Below, in pieces: positions 57,644-63,016 of a stretch of 64,000 bases of DNA. Source of the stretch: Halosimplex salinum (GTDB taxonomy: Archaea; Halobacteriota; Halobacteria; Halobacteriales; Haloarculaceae). Made by a program: the position numbers and the translations under genes. The DNA lies in assembly GCF_003730195.1 (NCBI RefSeq), contig NZ_QWGG01000002.1:62001-126000 (forward strand), in the 5' to 3' direction. Positions within the stretch are counted from its first letter, which is position 1. Each line of letters starts with the position of its first letter. Below the pieces are notes generated by a model. The model saw nothing but the letters and a program-made list of their open reading frames with translations, was not told where the DNA came from and did no database searches.

Positions 57644-58372
57644 ATGACTCGCTCGGCCGTCCAGCTGTACACGCTCCGCGACGTGGACCGCCCGTTCACC
57701 GAGGTGCTCGAACTCGTCGCCGACGCCGGCTTCGAGGGTGTCGAGTTCGCCTACCGCGTCACCGAGGCCGACCCGGATGCGGTCCGGGCGACCCTCGACG
57801 AGACGGGCCTCGACGTGGCCGGCGCACACGTCGGGCTCGACGCGCTCGAAGACGACTTCGACGAGACGGTCGCCTTCTACGACGACCTCGGCGTCGACCA
57901 CGTCGTCGTCCCGTGGCTCGACGCCGAACACTTCGAGTCGGTGGCGGCCGTCGAAGCCGCGGCCGCCCGCCTCGCGAAACTCGCGGACGAACTCTCCGCC
58001 CACGGGATGGCGCTCCACTACCACAACCACGACCACGAGTACACCGACCTGGGCGACCGGACCGGCTTCGACGCCTTCGTCGACGAGACGTCGTTCGGCA
58101 TCGAACTCGACCTCGGGCTGGCGCTCGCGGCGGGCGACGACGTAGTCGAGCGTCTGCACGCGCTCGGCGACCGCTCGCGGCTCGTCCACCTGAAAGACTA
58201 CGACGTGGACGCCGGGGAGTCGGTCCCGGTCGGCGAGGGCGACCTCGACCTGGACGCGGTCGCCGACGCGGTCGACGAGAACGACAGCGAGTGGCTGATC
58301 TACGAGTACGAGGGGGCGAATCCGCTCGACTCGCTGGAGCGGGCCGGGTCGCGGACGAACGAACTCGTCTGA
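57644..58372 (+). CDS. Sugar-phosphate isomerase/epimerase-type TIM barrel
   Basis: 242 residues, xylose-isomerase-like TIM barrel. Marks are SAVQLYTLRDVDRPFTEVLELVADAGFEGVEFA, VAGAHVGLD, ALHYHNHDHEYTDLG (metal-binding His), SFGIELDLGLAL (metal Asp) and LVHLKDYDVDAGESVPVGEGDLD. Such enzymes isomerise or epimerise sugars or their acids. It is divergent from the glucuronoyl-esterase-like gene with 104 bases between starts; the two together with the aldo/keto reductase suggest a uronic acid or pentose route. Confidence 0.85.
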   Translation: MTRSAVQLYTLRDVDRPFTEVLELVADAGFEGVEFAYRVTEADPDAVRATLDETGLDVAGAHVGLDALEDDFDETVAFYDDLGVDHVVVPWLDAEHFESVAAVEAAAARLAKLADELSAHGMALHYHNHDHEYTDLGDRTGFDAFVDETSFGIELDLGLALAAGDDVVERLHALGDRSRLVHLKDYDVDAGESVPVGEGDLDLDAVADAVDENDSEWLIYEYEGANPLDSLERAGSRTNELV

Positions 58373-61585: not shown

Positions 61586-61602
61586 ACGACTGTGCTCCGA
61601 AA

Positions 61603-61612
61603 CGTATTTCTA
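61603..61612 (+). promoter_or_regulatory. TATA box of the trpS leader transcript
   Basis: cgtatttcta is centred 29 bases before ATG 61636, the start of the small leader frame, and 192 bases before the trpS ATG. No better TATA box is seen nearer to trpS. Confidence 0.6.
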
Positions 61613-61635
61613 CGCGAACAGAATACCGTGAACCG

Positions 61636-61719
61636 ATGAGAGAGTCCGCTCTCGGGTGGCGCTGGCGTGCGCGTGCTTCGAGAGCGGACAGTGTCGTGAC
61701 CGTGGGCGTCCGGGCGTAA
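61636..61719 (+). CDS. Putative Trp-containing leader peptide
   Basis: 27 codons, MRESALGWRWRARA and onwards to TAA at 61717-61719. Trp codons are codons 8 and 10 (61657-61659, 61663-61665), a strong excess for so short a frame. The ATG sits at leaderless distance from the TATA box. The Trp codons lie in the loop of the stem 61644-61654/61679-61689 and the stop codon in the loop of the next hairpin. I infer that it senses charged tRNA(Trp) to control trpS, 80 bases downstream; no experiment or homologue is known to me. Confidence 0.6.
   Translation: MRESALGWRWRARASRADSVVTVGVRA
61644..61689 (+). promoter_or_regulatory. Leader stem 1:2 around the Trp codons
   Basis: gtccgctctcg (61644-61654) is a perfect 11-base complement of cgagagcggac (61679-61689), with a 24-base loop that contains both Trp codons. 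A ribosome stalled on those codons would cover the left arm and open the stem. The right arm end cggac can also pair with gtccg at 61708-61712, part of the next hairpin. Confidence 0.6.
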
Positions 61720-61730
61720 CCCGGCCGCCC
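61704..61730 (+). terminator. GC-rich hairpin at the leader stop codon
   Basis: gggcg-t-ccggg / cccgg-c-cgccc forms two 5-bp stems separated by one mismatch, with the 5-base loop cgtaa that contains the TAA stop. The T-content after it (ctcactcgttcttcc) is only moderate, so its use as a terminator is uncertain; it could also block the ribosome or RNA processing. Confidence 0.45.
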
Positions 61731-61798
61731 GGGGCGCGGTGCTCACTCGTTCTTCCGACCGATTCGCCCGCCAGCCACCGCAGATCCCACAGAGACAC

Positions 61799-63016
61799 AT
61801 GCACGACGACACAGCCACCGACGCACAGCACGCCGACCAGAACACCCCCGCCACCGAACCGTCCGGATCGGACTCCGACGAGTTCACCGTCACGCCCTAC
61901 GACGTCGAGGGGACGGTCGACTACGACCGCCTGCTGGAGCAGTTCGGCGCCGACCGACTCACCGACGAGCAGGTCGGACGGTTCCCCGACCATCCGATGC
62001 TCCGCCGACGGGTCTTCTACGCCGGGCGCGACGTCGACCCCTATCTCGGCGCCGCCGAGGCCGGCGAGACACACTCGATCGTCACCGGGATCGGACCCTC
62101 CGGCCCGATGCACCTCGGGCACGTCCTCGTCTTCTACCTCGCGAAGCGACTGCAGGAGGCGACGGGCGCGTACGTCTACGTCCCGCTCTCGGACGACGAG
62201 AAGTTCTACGCGAAGGACCTCTCCTTTTCGGAGATCGAGGCCGCGACCCGGAGCAACCTGCGGGACCTCCTCGCCGTCGGCTTCGACCCCGAGCGCACGC
62301 GCATCGTCGTCGACCGCCTCGACGCCGACGCCCTCTACCCGCAGGCCGCGCGCGTCGCCGCGGACATCACGCAGTCCACCGTCGACGCGACCTACGGCGA
62401 CCCCGACAACGTCGGTCTCTCCTTCTATCCGGCGATGCAGGCCACCCACCTGCTCCTCCCCCAGCTGGTCCACGGGCGCCACCCGACGCTGGTCCCCATC
62501 GCCGTCGACCAGGACCCGCACGTCCGGGTCTGTCGCGACGTGGCCGCCAAGGAGCGATTTGCGGTGGACAAACCCGGCGCGCTCCTCGGGAAGTTCCTCC
62601 CCGCCCTCGACGGACCGGGGAAGATGTCCTCCTCCTCGGACGCGCCTGCTATCGAGTTGACCGACGACCGCGACACCGTCCGGGAGAAGATCATGCAGTA
62701 CGCCCACTCCGGGGGACGGGTCGATATCGAGGAACACCGCGAGCACGGCGGCGACCCCGCCGTGGACGTGGCCTACCAGTACCTGCACACGTTCTTCGAA
62801 CCCGACGACGAGCGCGTCGAGGACCTCGCGGCGCAGTATCGCTCGGGCGAGTTGCTGACGGGCGAACTGAAGGAAGTCGCCGCCGAGCGGATCGGGGAGT
62901 TCCTGGCCGAGCATCAGGAGCGTCGAGAGGCGCTCGGCGACCTGCGCGAGGAACTCGGCCCGTATCGGCTGACCGAGGAAGAGCGCGAGCGACTGCGGCC
63001 GTCGGTGTTCGACTGA
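61799..63016 (+). CDS. trpS: Tryptophanyl-tRNA synthetase
   Basis: 405 residues, class I synthetase. The HIGH-type motif is GIGPSGPMHLGHVL (about 102-115) and the KMSKS-type motif is PGKMSSSSD (about 278-286). VPLSDDEKFYAKDLS and PIAVDQDPHVRVCRDVA are further conserved parts of the archaeal/eukaryal TrpRS type. It attaches Trp to tRNA(Trp). The N-terminal 30 residues are acidic and poorly conserved; ATG 61799 is chosen, with an in-frame ATG at 61739 less likely. The long upstream region has the leader described at 61603-61730. Confidence 0.95.
   Translation: MHDDTATDAQHADQNTPATEPSGSDSDEFTVTPYDVEGTVDYDRLLEQFGADRLTDEQVGRFPDHPMLRRRVFYAGRDVDPYLGAAEAGETHSIVTGIGPSGPMHLGHVLVFYLAKRLQEATGAYVYVPLSDDEKFYAKDLSFSEIEAATRSNLRDLLAVGFDPERTRIVVDRLDADALYPQAARVAADITQSTVDATYGDPDNVGLSFYPAMQATHLLLPQLVHGRHPTLVPIAVDQDPHVRVCRDVAAKERFAVDKPGALLGKFLPALDGPGKMSSSSDAPAIELTDDRDTVREKIMQYAHSGGRVDIEEHREHGGDPAVDVAYQYLHTFFEPDDERVEDLAAQYRSGELLTGELKEVAAERIGEFLAEHQERREALGDLREELGPYRLTEEERERLRPSVFD

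Follow-up and report, generated by a model that had tools for sequence, protein, structure and literature searches.

Upstream of trpS2, a tryptophan-tRNA ligase (TrpRS) gene in a 64,000-nucleotide stretch of a Halosimplex genome (hereafter the window), lies a short reading frame with two Trp codons. This raises the question of whether the frame belongs to a switch through which the translating ribosome senses tryptophan. According to a 2021 paper, neither attenuation nor antitermination is known in archaea (PMC8448881), and a literature search with thin coverage of subscription journals returned no later report of archaeal attenuation. The assignment of the gene is given below; its TIGR00233 and NF008927 scores both exceed the cut-off.

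61799 to 63016, forward strand: trpS2, a 405-residue tryptophan-tRNA ligase (TIGR00233, 211 bits; NF008927, 543 bits; PF00579)

The same genome carries a second TrpRS gene, trpS1, with a frame of 595 residues. Among genomes, trpS2 is patchily distributed and trpS1 is widespread.

A promoter-spaced leader frame with Trp codons precedes trpS2

The region in front of the gene contains the following two elements:

61598 to 61612, forward strand: promoter of the leader, with BRE (CGAAA) and a TATA-like element, placed by A+T peaks and a match to the haloarchaeal motif
61636 to 61719, forward strand: leader ORF of 27 codons, MRESALGWRWRARASRADSVVTVGVRA, with Trp codons 8 (61657-61659) and 10 (61663-61665)

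Inspection of the sequence and the ORF list confirmed the frame and both Trp codons exactly as described in the initial annotation. We then searched the DNA upstream of the loci encoding TrpS2 relatives, which comprised 62 distinct haloarchaeal trpS2 loci, of which 60 carry a short W-x-W or WW frame, mostly WRW, adjoining a conserved core. The small frame with Trp codons is thus kept across haloarchaea, including Halosimplex, Halovenus, Halorussus, Natrialba, Natrinema, Haloferax, Halogranum and Halobacterium; the laboratory species Halobacterium salinarum (L094) and also Haloferax elongans (L078) are among the species with the element. The outcome that the initial annotation had named as a refutation, homologous regions devoid of the frame or of its Trp codons, was therefore not what the comparison gave. 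Of the two loci outside the 60, L055 shows, by eye, a frame that opens with GTG and contains one Trp; in L057 (Halomarina) the leader, MTELCRWRWRAPSPADSSDRVVVAA, is clear and was missed by the core finder only. No W-x-W frame was found upstream of the TrpRS relatives L097 and L099 from ANME-1/Methanophagales (~45% identity).

The leaders hold on average 2.25 in-frame TGG codons, compared to 0.18 and 0.05 in the other two frames, and all 60 contain at least two, counts that have to be read with the selection of these leaders for W-x-W or WW. A selection-free control gave the same picture: directly upstream of trpS2, 53 of 62 stretches have a W-x-W frame that starts with ATG and runs for 12-40 residues, and further upstream at the same loci none of 475 flanking stretches has a W-x-W frame. 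Within the window, 4 of 1274 overlapping 300-nt stretches contain a short W-x-W ATG ORF, two of the four being the leader at 61636-61719 itself. The sole other such frame in this control, MPNDVSSTKASKPVRSPRSVYSWSWLW at 58018-58101 on the minus strand, shares its DNA with a long ORF and probably arose by chance.

The BRE/TATA sequence CGAAACGTATTT at 61598-61609 lies ~30 nt 5' of the leader ATG. The initial annotation had proposed a TATA box at leaderless distance from the small frame, in agreement with what 60 leaders show when numbered from their start: A+T peaks at -36 to -34 (BRE) and -31 to -26 (TATA), and a WW pair at -12/-11. Haloarchaeal promoters are known to employ TTWT, CGAAA and WW at -10, and 72% of the protein-coding transcripts of Haloferax volcanii are leaderless (PMC4983044). 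Corresponding A+T peaks before the trpS start were not found in the 60 loci. As the promoter elements are placed for a start at the leader ATG, this ATG is most likely also the start of the trpS transcript.

The leader RNA forms conserved and covarying helices

The 100-nt leader RNA is predicted to fold more stably than expected from its composition (z = -5.27; none of 200 shuffles equally stable), and the larger stretch of 174 nt is not unusual (z = -1.0). The helices P1 to P3 and the conserved motifs beside them are as follows:

61644 to 61654, forward strand: strand 1, left arm of P1, GTCCGCTCTCG, supported by P1 covariation
61679 to 61689, forward strand: strand 2, right arm of P1, CGAGAGCGGAC; its part 61680-61687 also pairs with strand 4 in the alternative helix
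61686 to 61692, forward strand: conserved GGACAGU motif joining P1 to P2, kept in Halorussus despite a different reading frame
61690 to 61698, forward strand: left arm of P2, supported by covariation
61712 to 61722, forward strand: P3 hairpin GGGCGUAACCC, motif GGGCNUMACCC, containing the leader stop codon
61735 to 61743, forward strand: right arm of P2, supported by covariation
61741 to 61744, forward strand: 3' edge of P2 with GCUC, the same in 78 of 78 sequences

P1 corresponds to the perfect 11-bp stem (61644-61654 with 61679-61689) that had been proposed to hold the Trp codons in its loop, and it is present exactly as drawn. For most structure counts we excluded L052, a degenerate copy, and L057, in which the stem is shifted. 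Over an alignment of 58 leaders, 92.6% of the cells of P1, P2 and P3 are paired, and a shift of the partner by 1-3 columns lowers the value to 39-46%. Twelve pairs have changed on both sides, comprising 120 such cells, a result reached by none of 500 shuffles. P1 varies as a unit, with arms such as UCCGCUCUC/GAGAGCGGA, UCCGCUCCC/GGGAGCGGA, UCCACUUCC/GGAAGUGGA and UCCACUCCC/GGGAGUGGA. A wider set of 78 sequences shows P2 and two P3 pairs at 85.9% pairing, again above all 500 shuffles, with a double-change count for P2/P3 that 37 of the 500 shuffles matched. Halorussus offers a separate view, because its frame is shifted after WRW (..GERTVS*) while the right arm of P1 and GGACAGU are unchanged; these parts are therefore kept as RNA and not as peptide.

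The GC-rich hairpin of the initial annotation (61704-61730) fared less well. It is present with the stop codon TAA in its loop, but the full form as drawn is not conserved, and only the inner GGGCNUMACCC motif persists, even where the stop codon lies outside it. As a terminator, the role given to it, the hairpin lacks both full conservation and a following U-run. Judged from sequence comparison, the Trp-codon leader together with the covarying P1/P2 RNA is very likely functional.

The element is widespread in haloarchaea and tied to TrpRS genes

A covariance model of the element (R1), run on 392 genomes of the class from 86 genera, matched in 164 genomes and 50 genera; a second model without the P1 loop matched in 158 of the 392 and gave the same picture. 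The window's own genome contains one real copy. In a phylum-wide sample the sole match outside the order was weak (24.6 bits) and after inspection we judged it to be chance, as we did for the opposite-strand matches at the same place and those of ~20-32 bits elsewhere in whole genomes.

Among 91 distinct matches inspected, 88 directly precede a TrpRS gene, either trpS2 or the paralogous trpS1. Where a genome has no trpS2 match, the element often stands before trpS1, and upstream of the Halosimplex trpS1 it was not found. A common RNA before two distinct TrpRS genes ties the element to the charging of Trp-tRNA. Two features of a leader-peptide attenuator are present here, clustered Trp codons (60 of 62 loci) and a downstream gene for the same amino acid (88 of 91).

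The remaining three matches are one ABC exporter locus and two loci of a GNAT acetyltransferase. The exporter belongs to another Halosimplex (L172; G004, C1:1344100-1344244, minus strand), with the leader MSATGLGPVLWHGSTVADSALA and one Trp codon. Both acetyltransferase loci, L228:844-978 and L229 (G154, C2:2009689-2009830, minus strand), come from one genus, and their leaders, MSAPNASAGRSRERTVRSAA and MSALSTFAVTSRERTVRSAA, contain no Trp codon. That these two loci have the RNA and lack the Trp codons counts against a Trp switch.

An alternative helix may hide a pyrimidine-rich strand

Trp-type attenuation had been suggested for this locus from the start. The promoter-spaced Trp leader in a stem loop before trpS stands, but the antiterminator and terminator hairpin named for it are not supported: CGGAC (61685-61689) and GTCCG (61708-61712) can pair here, and by eye this pairing is not visible in the alignment of relatives. 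We propose a different partner for strand 2 beyond P2:

61747 to 61754, forward strand: strand 4, pyrimidine/U-rich, pairing with 61680-61687 in the alternative state; proposed termination or cleavage signal

A perfect 8-bp helix of strands 2 and 4 would be possible in 48 of 59 sequences. With strand 4 shuffled the mean was 6.8 and the maximum 16; over 500 swaps between species the mean was 38.4 and the maximum 45, so that the covariation is only modestly above swaps and may be inflated by relatedness; moreover, a purine-rich strand pairs readily with any pyrimidine-rich strand. Predicted folding places strand 2 in P1 in the whole leader (mean probability 0.89) and, with strand 1 removed, in the helix with strand 4 (0.93), a value that speaks for feasibility more than for specificity since shuffled strand 4 still reaches 0.75. 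In 46 of the 60 leaders, 14 or 17 nt separate the last TGG from strand 2. Given the footprint of a ribosome, a stall at the last Trp codon would cover strand 1 and end before strand 2. The leader thus appears to hold two mutually exclusive helices sharing strand 2 beside the Trp codons, with strong covariation for P1 and weaker covariation for the 2:4 helix. The latter, which would exclude P1 and enclose P2, is proposed with less strong support than P1 and P2.

Strand 4 is enriched in U (75% and 72% T at its two best positions), and 12 of 60 leaders have a run of at least four T there, compared to ~1.5% in coding DNA. It is pyrimidine-rich and not a clean U-tract: the enrichment 3' of P2 does not amount to a consistent U-tract across leaders, and the window copy has no run of four T. 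A GC-rich hairpin followed by poly-U, as in bacterial intrinsic terminators, was found neither at the window locus nor in the alignment. U-rich RNA is the archaeal signal for termination dependent on FttA/aCPSF1 (PMC11616081, PMC8716108), a factor known for general termination and not as part of a regulated attenuator, and it may act at trpS2.

We propose a cis-acting, ribosome-sensed tryptophan switch upstream of trpS2, in which the stall at Trp codons, the end of transcription at strand 4 and the sign of the response are inferred. The RNA would begin with the leader ATG or right beside it, and the leaderless small frame would be loaded with a ribosome. With ample Trp-tRNA it would read through, P1 would re-form, P2/P3 would fold and strand 4 would be exposed, leading to an early end of transcription via the U-tract and/or FttA/aCPSF1. 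When Trp-tRNA is scarce, the ribosome would stall at the Trp codons and mask strand 1; the freed strand 2 would pair with strand 4 around P2, the signal would be hidden and trpS2 would be transcribed. Comparison supports well the promoter position, the coded Trp leader, P1, P2 and the link to TrpRS. Sensing of Trp by ribosome stalling at the leader is very probable, attenuation of transcription at strand 4 is only slightly favoured, and the mechanism as a whole appears moderately probable.

Conserved spacing and rival explanations

In 58 of 60 loci, 115-152 nt separate the core from the trpS ATG, and the interval from GCUC to the ATG is nearly constant as well (mostly 53-70 nt), alike at trpS2, trpS1 and GNAT loci. 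A purely transcriptional switch has no obvious need for such spacing, which counts against it. The conserved spacing makes control at the level of translation a serious rival, in which the fold changed by the stalled ribosome would open the trpS start or protect the RNA from cleavage or decay; the many members without a clean U-tract fit this reading too. Yet we found no conserved pairing between the element and the start region, and by eye the complementary stretches near the start are lineage-specific (GAGUGAGC in a few species, CCAGC in others). The spacing may instead reflect the ~36 nt that an FttA terminator requires (PMC11616081). FttA binds U-rich RNA, the best position of the U-rich part being -30 to -36 relative to the 3' end of the RNA (PMC11616081). 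Strand 4 occupies roughly GCUC+10 to +15, which would put the RNA polymerase at roughly GCUC+46 to +51, shortly ahead of where the trpS ATG usually lies (GCUC+53 to +70). Control of trpS translation or RNA stability seems unlikely, though it is the foremost rival to attenuation of transcription.

The leader might also answer to stalling in general, caused for example by inhibitors of TrpRS or translation, with trpS2 as an inducible, resistant second TrpRS. This would suit a patchy trpS2 beside a widespread trpS1, the candidate attenuator before trpS2 of Streptomyces avermitilis (PMC1262725), and the occurrence of the same RNA before an exporter with one Trp codon and an acetyltransferase with none. 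The idea of an inhibitor is itself conjecture, and the leaders at the TrpRS genes, which make up nearly all inspected matches, keep their Trp codons; we consider this explanation improbable.

T-boxes bind tRNA directly and do not need translation of a leader. As proposed for the present element, they control aminoacyl-tRNA synthetase genes by the charging of the cognate tRNA, and the highly conserved UGG triplets in the P1 loop, before genes for TrpRS, could be read as one UGG pairing with the CCA anticodon of tRNA-Trp and another with its NCCA end. Against this, the start codon sits at the position set by the promoter, the frame is open in 60 of 62 loci, the Trp triplets share one frame, and the phase from ATG to strand 2 is equal in 53 of 60 leaders despite variable loop length. 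Furthermore, Rfam gave no T-box or other match above the gathering score in five loci and none of relevance in the window at E values up to 1. Such direct sensing of tRNA is very improbable. A final reading, that the element arose by chance or is a neutral part of GC-rich intergenic DNA, might be suggested by the commonness of inverted repeats at the local GC content and the ordinary stability of the 174-nt region. It is refuted by the conservation, with compensatory changes, in 50 of the 86 genera sampled, and its probability is negligible.

Comparison with known attenuators

In the E. coli trp attenuator, a stall on Trp codons frees a strand that disrupts the terminator hairpin. The proposed switch is alike in that a Trp stall would mask one arm of a stem and let the other pair downstream; it differs in that the freed strand would hide an unstructured pyrimidine/U-rich strand, and in that many of the haloarchaeal stop codons lie beyond strand 2 and not between strands 1 and 2. 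Candidate Trp attenuators have been described before trp operons and trpS2 of the Actinobacteria Streptomyces and Corynebacterium (PMC1262725). These share a short leader with repeated UGG (double or triple there), alternative helices and a TrpRS gene or trp operon downstream (PMC1262725). They possess a GC-rich terminator hairpin and poly-U, whereas in haloarchaea the alternative helix would form around P2/P3, a domain of its own; the small frame seems to be leaderless, and archaeal machinery probably recognises a pyrimidine/U-rich strand as the signal. Homology at the level of RNA sequence is not expected. Bacterial Trp attenuators are the nearest kind, and the features that sequence comparison can address agree with them apart from the putative terminator, which is not of the bacterial intrinsic type.

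The broadest claim is that we are dealing with the first ribosome-sensed amino-acid attenuator in Archaea, a family absent from Rfam and found in no fewer than 50 of the haloarchaeal genera sampled, where a stalled ribosome would hide a pyrimidine/U-rich signal probably read by FttA, and whose platform was reused before an exporter and an acetyltransferase, possibly there to sense something other than Trp. We regard this claim as evenly poised. Should the switch act as envisaged, coupling of archaeal transcription and translation would be tight enough for a stalled ribosome to decide on termination, and leader-peptide attenuation would have arisen in both prokaryotic domains. As a specific and widely conserved candidate, the element brings a question of archaeal gene regulation within direct experimental reach in laboratory species.

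Further trpS2 copies and the trp biosynthesis genes

Three genomes contain second trpS2 copies (L173, L175 and L176), whose GTG-started leaders have a single Trp codon (e.g., VSTSPETDERRWR) and are possibly weakened sensors. Two partial trpS2 matches, L174 (G328 C6) and L014 (G006 C1:2892555), are probably decayed copies, and the L174 copy retains its leader. Before trpC, trpD and a second trpD-like gene of the window's own genome no W-rich leader was found. Promoter-near inverted repeats lie upstream of trpD (GATGTAC-TGATTC-GTACATC; L249, G000 C11:108182-109153) and of trpC (CTGTCC-GTTAGT-GGACAG; L248, G000 C3:22156), which suggests a DNA-binding regulator of the trp biosynthesis genes in place of a leader peptide.
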